Shown here one piece after another: positions 1 to 28,610 of a DNA stretch of 64,000 nt; position 1 is the stretch's first letter; every line of letters begins with the position of its first letter. Origin of the DNA: Alphaproteobacteria bacterium Ga0077535 (lineage in GTDB: Bacteria; Pseudomonadota; Alphaproteobacteria; Caulobacterales; Aquidulcibacteraceae); contig LNEK01000040.1 of NCBI GenBank assembly GCA_001464425.1, positions 1 to 64,000 of the forward strand, in the 5' to 3' direction. A model generated the notes under the pieces. The model worked only from the letters and a program-made list of their open reading frames with translations. It did not search any database and was not told the DNA's origin. The translations under genes and the position numbers were made by a program.

Positions 1-36
1 AAAAACGAACGGATGGTCGCAGATCGACTTCATGAG

Positions 37-92
37 GGGGTCAAAATTGGACGCCGATCCTCCCGTCTAAGGGGTCAAAATTGCATGCCGAT
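37..92. repeat. Two 22-bp direct repeats, possible IS21-type end remnant
   Basis: Two copies beginning GGGGTCAAAATTG lie at 37-58 and 71-92, 34 bp apart start to start. They differ at only two of 22 positions and both end in GCCGAT. Closely spaced short repeats of this kind are found at the ends of IS21-family elements, and from memory the wording resembles the istA-proximal end. No istA or istB gene is visible, so the element would lie to the left of the window or be lost. Confidence 0.4.
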
Positions 93-180
93 TCACAGGC
101 AGACCGAGCCGTTCTCTGAATTAGCCACCACTTCTTGCGATAACGCGGACGGGCGATTGTCCGCGCGGGATAGGAGGCAA

Positions 181-285
181 TTACGGCGTGTAAAGCGCAG
201 CGAGCATCAGCCACGCGACGAGCCACAATGCAACGAGCGCGAACGGCGTCCACCAAGGGGCGGGGGATCGGGCACGGTTAGACAA
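181..285 (-). CDS. Possible 34-aa single-span membrane protein
   Basis: A short minus-strand frame from a TTG at 285 to TAA at 181 encodes a basic N-terminus followed by one strongly hydrophobic, tryptophan-rich stretch of about 20 residues ending in LYTP. The layout suits a small inner-membrane peptide. The frame stays open upstream of the TTG, so it could instead be the tail of a broken longer gene. No clear ribosome binding site is seen. The product is not recognised. Confidence 0.25.
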   Translation of the reverse strand: MSNRARSPAPWWTPFALVALWLVAWLMLAALYTP

Positions 286-363
286 TGCTCCATCGAAAGA
301 GAATTGCGTGACACTTTGGTGAGACGTCGATGAACCAACTCCCCCGCAGCTATGCAGGAAGCT

Positions 364-816
364 CTACTCTTCGTGCCGTCGACGAAGGCTGCGCCACGCG
401 CGCCAACATTCTACGGCGATGAGGCCGCAACTCAGCACCGCTAACGTTCCAAACGCCAGTCGGCCTTGCCCCTCCGGTGCGTTGCCTTGCAACGTCGCTG
501 TAGCCGATCCTGACGTCAATTCGCGAGCGCCTTCACCGAAGGCGATCCACAAGAAAATTGCCGCGAGCGACGTCAGAAACGCAATCACGACGAGGTGGCG
601 GAGCGTGCTGAACCGCGTCGGCGCGGCATCGAGAGCGAGATAGGTGCCGCTCAGCAGGAATGTAACACCCGCAGAGCCAACGACCCAGGCCGGTGCATGC
701 AGCTCACCGCCAAGTAGAGGCGCTCGTCCCACTGCGATGCCGACCAGATAAAAGCCAACCGCGGCAAACACGGCAACGCCTGCTACCCGGGCCCAAATTG
801 GGATGGTATTGTCCAT
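364..816 (-). CDS. Hypothetical four-span membrane protein
   Basis: The product is about 150 aa with four hydrophobic segments (roughly residues 6-28, 40-60, 72-92 and 118-138) and a basic C-terminal tail, so it should be an inner-membrane protein. The ATG at 816 is preferred; a GTG at 831 would add five residues. Neither has a good Shine-Dalgarno sequence. I do not recognise the family and the neighbours give no functional hint. Confidence 0.55.
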   Translation of the reverse strand: MDNTIPIWARVAGVAVFAAVGFYLVGIAVGRAPLLGGELHAPAWVVGSAGVTFLLSGTYLALDAAPTRFSTLRHLVVIAFLTSLAAIFLWIAFGEGARELTSGSATATLQGNAPEGQGRLAFGTLAVLSCGLIAVECWRAWRSLRRRHEE

Positions 817-969
817 GTGTACACGTGCCACGTCGATGCAACTTTGGGAATCGCGATCAACGTGACCTCAAGCAAGCGAATGACGCATTCCGGCGAGATT
901 CGGCCGGCGCGAGCGCAACTGTGCCAGCGGCAGAAATGGATCGAGTGAGCCAGTTAGGCGTGCAGTCTG

Positions 970-1350
970 CTATTCGCCGTAAAGCCGAATGGTTGCGTGC
1001 ACTCCTCGCCGACGGGTGTTTGCCTCGTATGTCATGCTGACTGCAGTGATGTTGCGGTCATCGCCGACAAGATCGATTACGCGCGTGCACTCGCCGGGTT
1101 GGACGCGCGCGCGCACCGGCACGTCTTGATGGCCGCCATTGGCGAAGTGCACGTCCACATCGATGAAATGAACAGGCCGCTCATAGGCGCATAGACGGAT
1201 ACGTTCGAAGCTGCGTGTGCCCGGTAGAGAGATACTGTCGTGATCAACTCTATCACGCACATCGCGGGTGCCGAGCAGATCCCACGCAAAAGCTGGCGTC
1301 GCCAGCGCGGTTACAAAAGCAGCTGCCATGCAAAGAGTTCGCATATTCAT
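970..1350 (-). CDS. Small secreted protein, DUF2541-like
   Basis: This 126-aa protein has a clear signal peptide (positive start, hydrophobic core, cleavage after the AFA near residue 22), so it should be periplasmic. The mature part is predicted to be mostly beta-strand and carries a TRVIDL / GDDRNI pattern that recalls small DUF2541 (YaaI-type) proteins; that assignment is tentative. The ATG at 1350 has a GGGAG motif at suitable spacing. It stands alone, with gaps of about 140-230 bp on each side. Confidence 0.6.
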   Translation of the reverse strand: MNMRTLCMAAAFVTALATPAFAWDLLGTRDVRDRVDHDSISLPGTRSFERIRLCAYERPVHFIDVDVHFANGGHQDVPVRARVQPGECTRVIDLVGDDRNITAVSMTYEANTRRRGVHATIRLYGE

Positions 1351-1583
1351 CTTCGCTCTCCCGTATCGAGAATGTCTTTATGGATCACACCGGCGCTGAA
1401 TTGAATAGCCCGGCTTTGACCGCATTCGCCAACAAGCGACGAAAACCAAGTCAGGCCAGTGACCGGGTTCGGCGATTGTGAGCCGGTTTGTCGGCTTGCG
1501 CGCGAGCGTCCGGAGTGGAGCGCGCCCGCCGCTCTTCAAGCTGAATGAGGCCTTTGCGGCAACTCAGGTGACGATGCTAACCG

Positions 1584-2981
1584 TCACACCACCTCGGACA
1601 GGAGCTGCGACGTCTTCGCGGCTGCAAGACTGACGCTCGCCGCATAGCGCTGTAGGTGCATCATGGCTTCTTTGTCTTCAGGGCCGAGATTGCGAAGCTG
1701 CGCGGTGAAGCCGTCAAGGCGGGCGCTGGTGCGCCAATCGTCGAGCTGAGGCTCTTTGCTCCAGCGGTATCGGTTAGCAAACTCCACCGCCATCATGCGC
1801 AGCCAATCGAGAGGTTCTTGTGGTGTGGGCACGGGCGTGCAAAGGGCGTTCTTCTGCGCCTCGTCGTAACAAGCGGCTTCGATGTGCGCGATGAAGGCGG
1901 CGCTGAACGTGGGCGCGCAAAAGCGAACCCATTGCAGCACAATCCGATCGCCTTGAAACACAGGCTGGGGCGGGTTCGGGGGAATGCCGGGAGACGAACA
2001 ATCGATATGAAGCACTTTTGCGTTGGTGGGGATGGTTCCGTGCTGCAGCACGATCCTGTCGGCTTCTATGGACACCACGCGGCCGAGACGGACGATGTTT
2101 TTGATCCGCCGCAGCTGCTCCAGCTCGCCATCACTTACGATCGCACAATGATACGCGGACGGCGCAATAGCAGGATCAATCCGTCGCCATTCTCCACATG
2201 CCTCAAGCCGGGCGAACAAGTCGGGGACCGACGCCGCCATGTTCAGCGCTTCAGTTTGATTGGCGACACTTTTCGCAAAAGAGGCAAAAAACTCTTTGCC
2301 AGGCTGGAAGTTGGCGCGGTTCAAGAGCCAGGAATCGCGGGGCATGATCCATCGAATAGCGTCAGGATCAGCGCCATTCTCGAGCAACCAGCAACAGGCG
2401 TCGATCGCGGTCTTGCCCGCCCCAATGACGACGTACTCAGCCTCGGGATGCGCGACGCGGGGCAATTCGTTCAGCGGGACACAGGTCATGCCATCAGCGA
2501 TGGCGTACTGCGGCGGACGGCGCGAAGGAACGGTTGTCTTCGATTGCGTCGCGTCCACAATCTTTCGTGCTCGTACTGCACGTTTCTTGCCCGACAACAA
2601 TGAAGTGACGGCGCTATCATCATCATACGCGCTCATCGGAAAATACTGGACGCGACCGGAGGGCAGAAACCTTTCGCGCATCACAGCTTCAAAATAACTT
2701 ACGACCTCGGCGCCAGTGGCGAGTTCCGAGAACCCCTTATTCAGCCCGTGAGTGTCGATGCGGCCAGAGCCAAGCTCTCGCGAGTTGACGCCGTAGGTTG
2801 CGGACGGCTGATGCAGGCGCACGAACGGGTAAGCGTCGTTCCAATGGCCACCCGGACGATGATGTCGATCGACCAGTGCGATGGTCGCAGTCGTCTCCGT
2901 GAGAAGCGTGTCTGCGAAAGCCATGCCTACCGCGCCCGCGCCGACGATCAGATAGTCGGCTTCAATTGGCTGCATACTCAT
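1584..2981 (-). CDS. FAD/NAD(P)-binding oxidoreductase
   Basis: The 465-aa product begins with a Rossmann dinucleotide-binding motif (GAGAVGMAFA) followed by an RPGGHW segment like that of flavin-containing monooxygenases. A second nucleotide-binding motif (VIGAGKTAID) lies near the middle. It is probably a soluble flavoprotein oxidoreductase or monooxygenase with unknown substrate. The ATG at 2981 is chosen because GGGGG precedes it and it places the Rossmann motif about 10 residues from the N-terminus. The frame stays open to 3101, but that extension looks non-coding. It appears to be a single-gene unit. Confidence 0.75.
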   Translation of the reverse strand: MSMQPIEADYLIVGAGAVGMAFADTLLTETTATIALVDRHHRPGGHWNDAYPFVRLHQPSATYGVNSRELGSGRIDTHGLNKGFSELATGAEVVSYFEAVMRERFLPSGRVQYFPMSAYDDDSAVTSLLSGKKRAVRARKIVDATQSKTTVPSRRPPQYAIADGMTCVPLNELPRVAHPEAEYVVIGAGKTAIDACCWLLENGADPDAIRWIMPRDSWLLNRANFQPGKEFFASFAKSVANQTEALNMAASVPDLFARLEACGEWRRIDPAIAPSAYHCAIVSDGELEQLRRIKNIVRLGRVVSIEADRIVLQHGTIPTNAKVLHIDCSSPGIPPNPPQPVFQGDRIVLQWVRFCAPTFSAAFIAHIEAACYDEAQKNALCTPVPTPQEPLDWLRMMAVEFANRYRWSKEPQLDDWRTSARLDGFTAQLRNLGPEDKEAMMHLQRYAASVSLAAAKTSQLLSEVV

Positions 2982-3311
2982 TTGGACCCCCGCATCAGCC
3001 CAATGTGTACCTAGCGCTGCGCCAAGCCACCAGCCCAAGCCTCCAAATGACGAGTCAGCCGGTGAGTGCGAGCGGCTGATTTCGGCGAATTCCGGCCTCA
3101 TTACCAGTTCATGACCAACGGCAGGGATGTGCTCGATATCTTCCCTTAGCCCTGTGGTCGACGCCGCCGGCAGGCGTCGTCGACTTATGTGAGGGACGCC
3201 CCGCGGCCCGACGCTTTCACGTCAGCAATCGCGCGCAGTGCGGGTCAAGGGACGCGCGAAGCGCGGCGCGGGACGCGCTTGCCCTTGGCGCGCGCGAGCA
3301 CGATGGCACTC

Positions 3312-3656
3312 TCATGCCTGCTTACAATCGACACCAGAACCGTCGCCAATGGTTGCGGAGGGGGCAGGACGCGCCCGAGTGATGATCAAGTCCCAATCGT
3401 GGGCGACGATCGGATGGAGCGGACGGGTACATCGCTTGATCGTCCCGCTCAACGCTGTGATGTCGCCTTCTTGCAGCGTTTTCTCCAATCGATCAGCCAG
3501 ATTGGCATCGACGCAGAGACAGGGCGCGAAATGCAAGTCGTCAAAGCGTCTCCCGTAGAGGACGACATATGGGCACCGCAGAACCAGGTGCAGGCCATAA
3601 CGAGACCGCCTGATGACGCAGACGCATCCGGCGGCCGCCCAGATGCCCTTAGCCAT
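3312..3656 (-). CDS. Hypothetical protein, last gene of unknown operon
   Basis: A 114-aa frame starts at an ATG (3656) that overlaps the stop of the upstream gene by eight bases (ATGGCTAA), which suggests translational coupling. The protein has a short hydrophobic, Cys-containing N-terminus and a C-terminal half rich in charged residues. I recognise no domain. The overlap and the shared strand are the main arguments that it is real; the codon pattern is less convincing than that of its neighbours. Confidence 0.4.
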   Translation of the reverse strand: MAKGIWAAAGCVCVIRRSRYGLHLVLRCPYVVLYGRRFDDLHFAPCLCVDANLADRLEKTLQEGDITALSGTIKRCTRPLHPIVAHDWDLIITRARPAPSATIGDGSGVDCKQA

Positions 3657-4110
3657 CGCGCCGGATCGCACGCAGGTCTGAGATGACCGCCAACAATACG
3701 CGATGCGCAGCCGGATAGTCTTCCGGGTCGACGATTTCTGCCACAACGCTCAGCTTGGCGGCGGCGCTCACCGCGCTTGTGGCTGGAACAGATCGCAACC
3801 GCCGTACGATGCGCGCGCCTGCGCGTACGCATCGGTCGTATTCTTCATCGATCGCTTGGAGCAATGCCGCTTCCGGCACCGTCTTCTGATCAGCCTTGCT
3901 CAAGGCAAACCAATTACGGTTGTCCGCGAGCCACGCCTCGTGGTCACCCCAACGCCGCATAAGCCATTCCTGGCGGCGAATGAGATCGCCAAAATGCGCG
4001 CACAGAACAACTACTGGATCGGACTCGGCTGCCTTCGCGACTGCGCCGTCTGCGAGTAGTGGCGCAGACCCCAATGCGGCAACGATCTCGCGGCGTGAGA
4101 GGCGAGCCAT
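3649..4110 (-). CDS. Hypothetical protein with Tat-like leader (paralogue B)
   Basis: The product is 153 aa. Its start at 4110 overlaps the stop of the preceding membrane gene as TAATG. The N-terminus reads MARLSRREI and runs into a short hydrophobic stretch, a twin-arginine-type leader that implies export in folded form. The mature part is helical and resembles the product at 4355-4801: both have a NW...L motif, a P-E pair, an acidic helix, a KL segment and a closing AHR...L...LRA. The shared pattern suggests a duplicated family whose function I do not know. Confidence 0.6.
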   Translation of the reverse strand: MARLSRREIVAALGSAPLLADGAVAKAAESDPVVVLCAHFGDLIRRQEWLMRRWGDHEAWLADNRNWFALSKADQKTVPEAALLQAIDEEYDRCVRAGARIVRRLRSVPATSAVSAAAKLSVVAEIVDPEDYPAAHRVLLAVISDLRAIRRDG

Positions 4111-4352
4111 TAGCGCACCCATCGTAAGCTGCACCGCACCGTTTCAATGAGGCAGCCTGAGACGATCACGGCCGCAAGCATACCGGCGCCAACATTATTG
4201 AATAGAACGCTGACGAAGTGCCCGGCCACAATGGCGGCATAGGTTGGCGGACCCAGCGCGAGTAGAAGGATCAGCCAATACCAGAGAAGCCGCAGCACGA
4301 TGATCGCCATCGGGAGCAGGAGTGCAAAGCCGGCGAGCGAACCCCAGTCCAT
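4110..4352 (-). CDS. Small two- to three-span membrane protein
   Basis: This 80-aa product is almost entirely hydrophobic, with probable spans at about residues 5-23, 25-45 and 50-70 and a basic C-terminus. The ATG at 4352 lies two bases after the stop of the upstream Tat-leader gene, and its own stop overlaps the next start (TAATG). This makes it the middle member of a tightly coupled operon, sandwiched between two related exported proteins. It may anchor or export them (inference from context only). Confidence 0.6.
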   Translation of the reverse strand: MDWGSLAGFALLLPMAIIVLRLLWYWLILLLALGPPTYAAIVAGHFVSVLFNNVGAGMLAAVIVSGCLIETVRCSLRWVR

Positions 4353-4354
4353 CG

Positions 4355-4801
4355 TCAGCCGCCATGCAGCGCGCGATAGTCGCGCAAGATGCTAGCGATC
4401 AGGCGATGCGCTTCCTCGTTCTCCTCCGGACACACCTCGATAGCGGCGATAGCGAGCTTGCCGCAGATGCCGAGCGGCGAAGTTGCGGCGAGCGCCGGAA
4501 GCGACGCGAGCAGAATGCGGTTCTCCTCGTGCAAATCGTCCATCCGATCGTCGAGATCGTCCATCTCATGCTTCTCGGGGAAACGCTTGCGCTGCGCGCG
4601 GGTGAGACGTGACCAGTTGTGATCCCGAAAGAGCCGCGTCTCGATCTGCTGCCAGCGCTTGCCGAGGCGCTCATGCTCGGCATGACGCGAGAGCCAAGTC
4701 TTCGAAGCAAACGCCGCCCGATCCTCGGGCGGGAACGGCCCATTGCTGAGCAAGAGCGCAGCCGATGCACTGTTGATGAGATGGCGACGAGACACGGTCA
4801 T
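4355..4801 (-). CDS. Hypothetical protein with Tat-like leader (paralogue A)
   Basis: The 148-aa product opens with a twin-arginine-like leader (TVSRRHLINSASAALLL) and continues as a highly charged helical protein with an acidic DDLDDRMDDL stretch near residue 80. It shares the NW..L and AHR..AS..RDYRAL patterns with the product at 3649-4110. GGAGGT lies at good spacing before the ATG at 4801, making this the likely first gene of the operon running to 3312. It is divergent from the XRE regulator at 4937, which is the obvious candidate to control it. Confidence 0.65.
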   Translation of the reverse strand: MTVSRRHLINSASAALLLSNGPFPPEDRAAFASKTWLSRHAEHERLGKRWQQIETRLFRDHNWSRLTRAQRKRFPEKHEMDDLDDRMDDLHEENRILLASLPALAATSPLGICGKLAIAAIEVCPEENEEAHRLIASILRDYRALHGG

Positions 4802-4875
4802 GGGACCTCCGGCGCGAGCGCTGGGGACAGCCGTTTCGGGCTGGTGAGCGACTTTTAAGAGCTAGGTGTGCAATA

Positions 4876-4936
4876 GTGCGCACACAGCACCGACTAAGTC
4901 AACACGCTGTGCGCAAAAATCGGCACGAGGTGCGCA
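4876..4936. promoter_or_regulatory. Three GTGCGCA repeats, candidate operators
   Basis: The heptamer GTGCGCA occurs at 4876-4882 (there as the palindrome GTGCGCAC), 4909-4915 and 4930-4936, all on the same strand, within the 135-bp gap between the divergent operon (start 4801) and the XRE gene (start 4937). The third copy abuts the TTG start codon. Repeats placed between a small HTH gene and a divergent operon commonly bind that regulator. Binding by this protein is inferred. Confidence 0.5.
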
Positions 4937-5167
4937 TTGCTAGAACCCATTCAAGTGAAGCTGGCGCGAGTTGCGCTTGGCCTAGGCGTTCGCGAACTGG
5001 CGGAAGCTGCCAGCATCGCTCCTTCCACCATCACGCGTTTTGAATCAGGGAAAGGCGGGATGCAGGCTCGGACTCTGGACAAGATTCAGCGGGTGCTGGA
5101 GCGCGGCGGAGTCGAGTTCATCGATGCTGACACTGATGGCGGCGTGGGTGTCCGTTTGAAGCGCTGA
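4937..5167 (+). CDS. XRE-family transcriptional regulator
   Basis: This 76-aa protein is essentially one helix-turn-helix domain: an RELAEAASIAPSTITRFESG core fits the Cro/CI-type HTH, followed by a C-terminal segment (RVLERGGVEFID) common in short alphaproteobacterial XRE proteins. The TTG at 4937 gives the usual length for this group; an internal GTG lies six codons later. It sits directly behind three GTGCGCA repeats and is divergent from an unrecognised operon, so autoregulation and control of that operon are likely. Confidence 0.8.
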   Translation: MLEPIQVKLARVALGLGVRELAEAASIAPSTITRFESGKGGMQARTLDKIQRVLERGGVEFIDADTDGGVGVRLKR

Positions 5168-5614
5168 GACAGCGGCGCCCACTCATCGCGTCCACCATGT
5201 CGGGCCATTAGCGGTTCGCTTGTCGTGATCTCGCTCCGACCCGACTACCAAACAAATCGTGGCGGGCGTCCCGCTAATCAGTCGCTTGGGTAGCCCAAAC
5301 GGTGTCGAACGGAATGCGCTTCCCGCGGGAAGTTCCGGGTGGTTTGCCGAGCAATGTGCGTCCACATTATTTCTTTCCGCGACACATCGGTTTTTCTTGA
5401 GTGCGGACAACGCACTGACACGCACCGCAAGGTGCGCTTTATCTTGCCCTCGCTTCTCTTTCTCTGTTTTTCGGGTTTTTTGGCTCCAAACGAATCCAGC
5501 GCGAACTCGCCCCATGAATGCGCGGCCGAGCATCCTTCTCATTCGCGTGGCATTATGCATTCTGCGTTGAGAGACGCTTGTTGAGCATGCCTCGGACATT
5601 GGAGGCGCAACATT
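5168..5614. other. 447-bp stretch without a convincing gene, two small hairpins
   Basis: The frames here are short, overlap each other and look unlike coding sequence; composition is more AT-rich than in neighbouring genes, with pyrimidine-rich runs around 5445-5485. Two adjacent perfect hairpins are visible: 5401-5415 (GTGCG stem, 5-base loop) and 5421-5436 (CGCACC stem with a GCAA tetraloop), the second followed by TTTATCTT. The stems repeat the GTGCG core of the upstream operator-like repeats. The stretch could hold a terminator, a small RNA or further regulator sites. Confidence 0.4.
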
Positions 5615-6076
5615 ATGAGACGCCCGAAAGGTTCACGCGGTGCAGTCCAGCTTGGGCTGTTTGACGATCTGGTCGTCGCGCGCCCGAACGCTGTTGAGCG
5701 AGCACCACGCCCGTCCCGCGATCTGGAGACGCCGGCAGAGTCGTCAATCATTAGCATCCGAACCGATGATCTACCGCGCTATCCAAGCGAGGTGATCGAT
5801 CTCGTCGAGCGGTCACTGCAGAATCTTCCAAGCGATAGCTGCTGGTTTACTTACAAGGACATCAGACGCTGTTTCGGCGTATCGCGGGCGACAATCGCTC
5901 GAAGGCTCAAGGACGGCCTGGTGCCCGGTGTACGCTTCTGTGAAGGGCGCATGCTGGAAGATGGCGCAGTGCGGCGCTTGGACAGAGAACAACTACGCTG
6001 GCTTCTCTTGGCGGTCAGAGGTGCCGGTCAACGCGCGCGCCTTACTGCACACCGAAGCACTGCGCGCGCCCGCTGA
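5615..6076 (+). CDS. Hypothetical protein with HTH-like region
   Basis: A GGAGGCG motif precedes the ATG at 5615. The 153-aa product has a disordered, basic and proline-containing N-terminal third. This is followed by a compact segment (about residues 70-130) containing DIRRCFGVSRATIARRLKDGLVPG, which resembles a helix-turn-helix DNA-binding unit. The C-terminal tail is arginine-rich. It may be a small DNA-binding protein of an accessory element; the family is not recognised. Confidence 0.5.
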   Translation: MRRPKGSRGAVQLGLFDDLVVARPNAVERAPRPSRDLETPAESSIISIRTDDLPRYPSEVIDLVERSLQNLPSDSCWFTYKDIRRCFGVSRATIARRLKDGLVPGVRFCEGRMLEDGAVRRLDREQLRWLLLAVRGAGQRARLTAHRSTARAR

Positions 6077-6285
6077 CATTTCGCCCGATGGCGCGACCAT
6101 GCGCGAAACTGGCGATCTGAGACGATTTGAGCTACAAACGTTTGCTTCCCGCGCACGCTTTGCGAGGAACACTTTCAGCGTGTTGGGAATGTTGGGAAAT
6201 CGCGCGTTGCTTGACTTAGGCAACACGCGGAGAAGTCAGTGGATTTTTTATGCGCCCGAGTCACGTAGGCGCACCACTTTCCCGA

Positions 6286-7710
6286 TTAGCGGACTTCTTC
6301 GATCTCCACTTCGTCTGGGAGGTCGGCGTCGTGGCGCGCGCCCGTTTGCGGCGCGGTCAGCACCGCAGTTGGCAGCGCCAGCACTGGGCCAAGCGCGTCG
6401 TTTCCGCCGCGCTCCATGCGCGGGTGGATGAGTTGGCCGCCGTCACCGAAGACGTAAACCAAGCGCGCCCAATCGCTGTCGTCGTACATGAAGGCGGGGC
6501 CTTCCGGATCGAGGTCCGACCAATCGGCTTCGCGCGGCGCCGCTGCTGCTTGCGCCAGCCATGTGCGGGCGCCGTTCTCGTCGCCGCGACCGCGTGCGAC
6601 TTGCGCAAACAGGATGCAGATGCGCGAAGACGGGTTTTCGCGATACGCGTCCTCAAGAGCGGCTTGCGCGCCGCCCCAATCGCCGCGCTCCATGGCGAGT
6701 TCCGCCAGGATGATTTTGCTCTCGCGATGGTCACGGCGTCGTTCCGCGAACGTGCGCATGCGCTCGGCGCGCGCTTCGCGCGTTTCGCCGGGGACAAGAT
6801 CGCGATAGGCGTGGGCGAGCACGGGGTGCGGGCCGTTTTCCCACGCTTCTTCCATGATCGAGGCGGCGCGTTCGGCTTTGCCTTCGGCGACCAGCAGCCG
6901 AGCCGCCAGCGCGCCGGCGGGCACGAAGCCGGGAGCGATGCGGAAGGCCTTCTGCGCCATGTCGCAAGCTTTGTCCGCCCGGCGTTCGCGCTCAAGCTTC
7001 GCAGCTTGCGCGCTCATCAAAACCGCGCGGCGGCGCTTGGCGACTTTGTCTTCGACCTGCTTGCGCTTGTCGCCGATCTCGAGCGCTTCGATGGCGTTTT
7101 CCCAGTCGGCGGCCTGCACGGCGAGATCGAACGCGTATTGGAACGGCCATGTTGCTGTCTTCGAGGCTTTGAGCGCTGCTTCCGCGTGTGCGCGCGCCGC
7201 CGTGCGATCACCGCGCTTCAGTGCTGCCGCCATCAGGCCTTTGCGGCCGAGCACTTCGGTGTCTTCGTTCTGCAGCATGCCGGAATAGGCGCGCTCCGCG
7301 CCCGCAGTGTCGCCGCTGACCTCTGCAGCGCGCGCTTGCAGGAGCAAAGCGAGGCGTGGCTCGTCGATCAGGTCTTCTGCTTTATCCGCGTGCCGGCGCG
7401 CTTCTTCGAACTCGCCCGCTTCCGCCGCGATCAAACCAAGCGCCAGGGCTTCTTGCCCGCGGCGCACGCGTGCGCGTTGACTGTGTTTGCCGATGCGCCC
7501 CGGTGCATCCATCAGGAACATCACAAGGCGCAACAGCGGCAGCGCTACCGCGATCATCGCCACCAGGATCAGCAGCCCGAACAAAGCCGAGGTCGACACT
7601 TGCGTGCCAAACCACTCCACCTCAACCGTGCCGGGATCGGTGGTGACGATCTGCCAGGAGGCCAGCATCGCCATCACGGCGATGATCAGCAGGAAGGCGA
7701 GGCGCAACAT
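6286..7710 (-). CDS. hemY: HemY-domain membrane protein with tetratricopeptide-type repeats
   Basis: The 474-aa product begins with two membrane spans (about residues 1-20 and 38-62) around a short loop with the W-F-G-T signature of the HemY N-terminal domain. A long alpha-helical TPR-like cytoplasmic region follows. HemY of this type is associated with the haem synthesis operon; its biochemical role is unsettled and it is not protoporphyrinogen oxidase. The ATG at 7710 follows a GGAG motif and lies five bases after the mitofilin stop, so the two are co-transcribed. The frame is open to 7794, but that part overlaps mitofilin. Confidence 0.88.
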   Translation of the reverse strand: MLRLAFLLIIAVMAMLASWQIVTTDPGTVEVEWFGTQVSTSALFGLLILVAMIAVALPLLRLVMFLMDAPGRIGKHSQRARVRRGQEALALGLIAAEAGEFEEARRHADKAEDLIDEPRLALLLQARAAEVSGDTAGAERAYSGMLQNEDTEVLGRKGLMAAALKRGDRTAARAHAEAALKASKTATWPFQYAFDLAVQAADWENAIEALEIGDKRKQVEDKVAKRRRAVLMSAQAAKLERERRADKACDMAQKAFRIAPGFVPAGALAARLLVAEGKAERAASIMEEAWENGPHPVLAHAYRDLVPGETREARAERMRTFAERRRDHRESKIILAELAMERGDWGGAQAALEDAYRENPSSRICILFAQVARGRGDENGARTWLAQAAAAPREADWSDLDPEGPAFMYDDSDWARLVYVFGDGGQLIHPRMERGGNDALGPVLALPTAVLTAPQTGARHDADLPDEVEIEEVR

Positions 7711-28534: not shown

Positions 28535-28610
28535 GGGCCCGTAGCTCAGCTGGGAGAGCGCTGCGTTCGCAATGCAGAGGTCAGGAGTTCGATCCTCCTC
28601 GGGTCCACCA
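28535..28610 (+). tRNA. tRNA-Ala (CGC anticodon)
   Basis: The 76-nt cloverleaf has a 7-bp acceptor stem (GGGCCCG with CGGGTCC), a D-arm with AGCTCAGCTGGGAGAGC, an anticodon arm CTGCG-TTCGCAA-TGCAG with anticodon CGC reading GCG, and a T-arm with GTTCGATC. The CCA end is encoded (28608-28610). Confidence 0.97.

Follow-up and report, generated by a model that had tools for sequence, protein, structure and literature searches.

The entry-exclusion proteins TrbK, TraS, Eex and YddJ are lipoproteins or inner-membrane proteins; they are small envelope proteins without enzymatic motifs that are carried on conjugative elements, and in this they resemble the proteins described here. However, no sequence relation between the two groups was found, and the module that we describe differs in having a twin-arginine (Tat)-type leader together with an XRE partner.

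A second comparison is offered by the QseC/QseM pair of Mesorhizobium integrative and conjugative elements (ICEs). In PMC8627217, the HTH protein QseC, encoded next door, is reported to control qseM, and qseM/qseC to be duplicated, rearranged and chimaeric among ICEs, while PMC10359603 presents QseM as an antiactivator composed of a lone DUF2285 domain. In both cases a small HTH regulator (here the product of a divergent XRE gene, present at 60 of 66 loci) has its gene beside that of a small helical protein, the setting is an ICE, and duplications and chimaeras occur. QseM, as far as it is described there, has no leader; the protein of our module has one of the Tat type, its predicted fold is another one, and 23 of 66 loci carry a paralogue next to it.

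A member of the same family is encoded on the Phenylobacterium zucineum conjugative plasmid NC_011143.1 (127467-128364), where WP_012520361.1 (leader protein, E 6e-45 with a profile made here) and WP_012520362.1 (XRE, E 2e-36, likewise) stand in the same divergent arrangement. In contrast to the locus studied here, that pair comprises a single leader gene, with no g2 or g4 annotated beside it.

Results

The window, as we call the whole stretch of DNA that was analysed, comprises 64,000 nucleotides of contig LNEK01000040.1 of Alphaproteobacteria bacterium Ga0077535. The original prediction, made from the letters of the window, placed in it a four-gene operon in which two related leader proteins surround a tiny membrane protein. 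The features are these:

4355..4801, minus strand: g1, 148-aa leader protein, paralogue 1; leader at about residues 1-25, predicted helical bundle from residue 28
4110..4352, minus strand: g2, 80-aa hydrophobic membrane protein between the two leader paralogues
3649..4110, minus strand: g3, 153-aa leader protein, paralogue 2
3312..3656, minus strand: g4, 114-aa protein, diverged from g4 of relatives
4937..5167, plus strand: XRE (HTH_3) regulator, 76 aa, TTG start, divergent from the operon
4802..4936, no strand: intergenic region with both start sites inside, holding a candidate operator repeat
3147..3310, minus strand: structured noncoding element directly 3' of g4

All four reading frames are indeed found on the minus strand, and their junctions are, in g1-g4 order, a 2-bp gap, a TAATG overlap and a ATGGCTAA overlap. 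The small XRE gene, which had been said to face the operon, was given the wrong orientation; it lies back to back with it. In g2, 19-residue hydrophobic windows (Kyte-Doolittle mean of at least 1.6) extend across residues 1-44 and 46-76. The g4 of the window is merely 25-29% identical to g4 of four relatives, and its structure model is not good enough for use (pLDDT 43). The median pairwise dN/dS values of 0.13 for g1 (7 loci), 0.29 for g2 (9 loci), 0.13 for g3 (8 loci) and 0.14 for g4 (8 relatives, the window g4 left out) indicate purifying selection.

No named family was identified for the four genes: nothing convincing was found for g1-g4 in Pfam, NCBIfam, PHROGs or PADLOC, the last of which gave no model at E 0.01. 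The matches of g1 to DUF4880 (E 0.006) and of g3 to Reovirus_L2_MT1 (E 0.011) both lie far under the curated cut-offs and were rejected. There was no match among 50,697 phage records, 21 pattern matches in viral contigs included no confirmed relative, and of 72,556 plasmid records one matched g1 and none g3. The open-licence literature yielded no description of the module. For this module, which is frequently carried by self-transmissible DNA of environmental bacteria, we found no family name, and its function is a matter of guesswork.

The homology of g1 and g3, and with it the proposed internal duplication, is borne out by a search within the organism's own genome, in which g3 as query retrieved g1 at E 2.4e-11; the outcome that had been named as refuting the duplication, a lack of homology between the two leader proteins, was not observed. 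In a tree of 88 members, 25 g1-type and 19 g3-type rows form two clades that are split by one branch (97/92; 200/200 bootstrap trees; few columns). Since the second leader genes of L066 and L067, loci from another family, group with g3 in this tree, the duplication is either older than the genus or was transferred between families.

Both proteins begin with an S-R-R leader, in line with the twin-arginine-type leaders that had been predicted, and both pass a rule of our own making that asks for an R-R motif followed by an uncharged hydrophobic 12-mer. The same rule is passed by 76 of 89 sequences, and the R-R motif taken by itself occurs in 80 of 89. Among the 88 members, eight match Pfam TAT_signal (PF10518) at E <=0.1 and two match TIGR01409, in rows trimmed at the domain edges, which may have cost matches; neither model matches g1 or g3. 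Judged from these leaders, g1 and g3 are probably exported via the Tat pathway. Some family members have no hydrophobic leader. In f19, a family of another alphaproteobacterial order, leaderless relatives occur with the divergent XRE gene retained (an XRE match adjoins four of eight aligned leaderless relatives, seven of the eight being from genome G312 and one from G444), so that the family as a whole cannot depend on export.

The columns conserved at >=90% in the 88 rows are only R5, R6, L46, W50, E54 and L66, that is, the two arginines and four core residues; no catalytic set is therefore visible, which argues against an enzyme. An AlphaFold2 model of g1 built from 17 sequences (mean pLDDT 85.2, pTM 0.74) predicts four helices after the leader (28-61, 75-103, 109-121 and 129-146), including a long hairpin. 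With this model as query, Foldseek reached a best E of 1.0 against the PDB, and VIA a best Z of 8.9, within the range that the tool flags as uncertain for helical bundles; the STAT coiled-coil domains that head the VIA list (Z 8.9, rmsd 4.6) were dismissed as a common helical arrangement. The 88-member profile, run against PDB sequences, gave chance-like coiled-coil matches only; the best of them (E 3.4e-5) aligns 21 positions with a lectin neck, and no stretch passes alone.

We then compared 66 loci, namely the window, five further loci of its own genome and 60 regions around order-wide profile matches; eight match places were left out (G036, G053, G068, G070:C9, G091, G097:C2, G200:C1:1629951 and G254:C5:20581). 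As random controls, 40 stretches of 16 kb were drawn from these genomes, of which 39 remained once one that overlapped another had been dropped. The open reading frames of the 66 loci include the leader family in 66, the XRE family in 63, g2 in 18 and g4 in 14; in the controls, an XRE-family match occurs in 2 of 39 and a leader-family match in none. A divergent XRE/leader pair at most 420 bp apart is present in 60 of the 66 loci, 59 of these having 110-170 bp between domain ends. Tandem leader genes were seen in 23 loci, and g2 is bound to the duplication (17 of 18 g2 loci have two leader genes; six of the 23 two-leader loci have no recognisable g2), while g4 is confined to two-leader loci (14 of 14). 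As to whether the set travels together, the genes do co-occur in other genomes, but the four-gene set is not the conserved unit, which is smaller and consists of one leader protein and a divergent small XRE regulator.

The loci without the divergent pair are L069, L072, L074, L081, L083 and L100. All of these but L100 group in a single clade (99/90) and have leaders that fail the leader rule, so that regulator and leader were seemingly lost together, probably once. L078 fails the rule yet retains its XRE gene.

Within its own genome, the g3 query gave ten matches at six places, on contigs C40 (the window), C4, C15, C12, C18 and C7. The six best XRE matches (E <=1.5e-6) are exactly those beside leader genes, whereas the three weaker ones, at E 0.027-0.099, are found in other places; g2 is recognisable at three of the six modules, with a fourth match (E 0.045) away from any module, and g3 is truncated or absent in the C12 and C18 modules. 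Across the order, a profile built from nine proteins of the organism's own genome has matches at E 0.001 in at least 43 of 299 genomes and at least 11 of 54 genera, a lower bound with at most 12 candidates scored per genome. L238 and L244 add two further, more distant XRE/leader pairs. In the class, 7 of 385 genomes match, the organism's own included; four of these belong to f19 and hold as many as eight to ten matches apiece. Of five genomes examined from the order that includes G312, four match. The matches of G421 and G637 in the class-wide scan look like chance. A contig scan returned 10 named loci, all Hyphomonadaceae, Hyphomonas, Terricaulis or Alphaproteobacteria.

The regulator matches Pfam HTH_3 over the cut-off (E 5.5e-7). 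A candidate operator in the intergenic region is the inverted repeat GTGTGC-N8-GCACAC (4866-4885); it is also present in L113, and this is not independent evidence, since the intergenic regions of the window and L113 are 94-95% identical anyway.

A mosaic test, in which eight aligned operons were compared per 100 bp, showed an abrupt change of relationship along the operon. From 5150 to 4751 the window is 79-95% identical to L113, as against only 29-59% of compared columns to L009, L010, L104, L108 and L111; from 4650 to 4051 it is 76-94% identical to all six. L114, the seventh relative, is lower in g1 (65-73%). The jump in identity shows that a single block comprising the regulator, the promoter region and the g1 leader has been exchanged, its junction lying near the start of mature g1. 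The XRE protein of the window is moreover 60-76% identical to regulators whose leader proteins are 17-52% identical to g1 (L113 excepted). The distances of XRE and leader proteins are partially correlated (Mantel r 0.34; none of 2000 permutations as high). Different copies carry different regulators, as would be expected if each element answered to its own switch.

A relaxase, TraG, integrase or serine recombinase lies near 40 of the 66 loci and near none of 39 random loci (Fisher p 1e-11), the mobility reference proteins having been drawn from the module loci themselves, the loci not being independent and the stretches at contig ends being short. A relaxase or TraG alone is found at 31 loci and in no control. 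Pfam assigned DUF3363 with Relaxase, T4SS-DNA_transf, Phage_integrase and Recombinase to the references. From the difference between loci and controls we infer that the module is mainly accessory DNA of conjugative or integrative elements. At 26 loci no mobility gene was found within the stretch read, and the first 16 kb of the window, the left end of which is the contig end, hold none; the window copy looks like a remnant. A tRNA attachment site was sought: the sole tRNA of the window, at 28535, is far off, and none was seen in 11 other loci scanned. The DNA 3' of hemY in 24 stretches from relatives gave no empty site, none of them matching the left flank of the window (1-3080).

Several neighbouring genes may be recorded here. 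On the 3' side of hemY (the side of window position 6286), gene content varies from one relative to another, as is seen at insertion hotspots. At 5615-6076, in the interval separating the module from hemY, the window encodes a 153-aa HTH-like protein that matches AbiEi_4 under the cut-off (E 2e-4) and mad1 at E 3.6e-7. In L113, a SIR2 short-Argonaute-associated defence protein (5186-7042; PADLOC E 1e-177) adjoins the XRE gene.

Directly 3' of g4 lies the structured element of about 165 nt. All 16 aligned copies form a sharply bounded conserved island with mostly unrelated flanks, the copies of the window and L102 sharing some 60 bp more than the island. The predicted base pairs covary across 31 copies: both sides have changed in 34 cells, as against 9.1 in shuffles, of which none of 500 gave so high a value, and 4 to 6 after sliding. 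The number of further pair types is unremarkable, being reached in 37 of the 500 shuffles, and the fold predicted from one sequence by itself does not surpass that of shuffled sequences (z -1.06). Of the 66 module loci, 15 have the element on the 3' side of the operon and oriented like it, and two more, L109 and L115, have it on the opposite side. With model R1 the window copy scores 172 bits; this copy and the other module-locus copies, 17 in all, belong to the R1 training set, so that their scores are no test. None of the 39 controls reaches E 0.1 with the element model, and no Rfam family matches the element.

By BLAST the element occurs in 32 of 299 genomes, some of them without the module. 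Its six copies in the organism's own genome (window 3147-3310; L009 11118-11281; L010 6770-6933; C12:97327-97497; C18:37939-38094; C22:63122-63262) differ in their distance from a module, which is at most 1 kb for three and about 13 kb for two, the sixth having no module. Among the matches listed, 23 of 37 copies show a relaxase or TraG, which is on the same (5') side in 23 of 23. The element may mark a mobile-element boundary, with an RNA, an attachment site or a transfer site as candidates.

In L237, L238, L242, L244 and L246 the element stands directly 3' of a relaxase gene or about 1 kb away, with varied genes beyond. By eye, some genes beyond the L239 copy resemble type I-C cas genes, and beyond that of L238 a KAP-type NTPase.

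Discussion

The Tat leader and the mobile origin are better supported than the role of the module, for which we can offer the following model. The operon would be an accessory module of an ICE or IME in Caulobacterales-type bacteria. The XRE regulator and the operon share the divergent promoter region, and the regulator would most likely keep both repressed up to the point at which the element moves or comes under stress. The operon encodes two helical-bundle proteins, paralogous and non-enzymatic, that are probably exported by the Tat pathway, and the small membrane protein g2, which could hold both bundles at the inner membrane. Such a complex would serve the element at the envelope, the most specific guess being entry exclusion, i.e. 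the blocking of a second like element. A separate switch for each copy, the exchange of switches, the mobile context and a putatively exported non-enzymatic pair with a membrane protein all fit an envelope device of this kind. No known exclusion or conjugation family matches the module, and we put forward the repressed, exported inner-membrane complex only tentatively, with the chances somewhat against it. Its most extended form, in which an exchangeable block of XRE switch, operator and leader, placed before Tat-exported paired helical proteins, lets like elements coexist while excluding or policing each other, and in which the ~165-nt element, placed at one boundary of the same elements, may be a second undescribed part, is unlikely.

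Alternatively, the module could be cargo that benefits the host, its exported bundles acting in envelope stress or in the manner of chaperones and playing no part in transfer. In P. zucineum the plasmid-borne pair has clpB on one side and glk on the other, and lies in an island of stress proteins that also includes dnaK, grpE, Hsp20, DnaJ and YfdX; in L010 the neighbours on one side look by eye like a metal-efflux cluster, and the loci at which mobility genes were not found would be in keeping with such a function. However, most copies with a clear neighbourhood lie near a relaxase, TraG or an integrase and not beside one kind of cargo, and we regard this explanation as possible, if doubtful.

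In a transfer switch of the QseC/QseM kind, the XRE protein would govern the neighbouring gene, whose small product would block an intracellular activator, and the leader would be a vestige or a membrane tether. The likeness of layout, the duplications, rearrangements and chimaeras recounted above from PMC8627217, and the leaderless relatives with a divergent XRE gene in another order all speak for it. Yet most members keep the Tat-type leader, and the lone DUF2285 domain ascribed to QseM has no counterpart in g1 or g3, neither of which matches PF10074 at E 1. PF10074 is also absent from the best 25 of 37 families at E 0.1 in the scan of 88 members; a search of the organism's own genome gave no match either, and proves nothing, as it was equally silent in all 14 control genomes. 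We consider such a switch rather improbable, yet, like the host cargo, a serious competitor of the envelope device.

A defence or immunity cargo, directed against phage or conferring immunity to an envelope-acting toxin, is suggested by the SIR2 protein beside the L113 regulator and by the weak mad1 match next to the window module. Defence genes are the usual cargo of ICEs, so that a defence neighbourhood is weak evidence, and g1-g4 themselves drew no PADLOC model; this explanation, too, seems to us improbable. That the tight linkage of a small XRE protein to a small protein on mobile DNA reflects an addiction pair with the XRE protein as antitoxin is very improbable, as the two genes are divergent and not in one operon, no toxin family matches, and six copies with several regulator types are found together in one genome.

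Taken together, these findings describe a widespread module without a family name, which is carried on conjugative elements of one bacterial order in up to six copies per genome. If the reading as exclusion or transfer control is true, the coexistence of many related elements in a single cell would find an explanation, and the exchangeable block that holds the regulator would offer a natural test of that reading. The structured element, for its part, is a possible marker for finding the boundaries of these elements.
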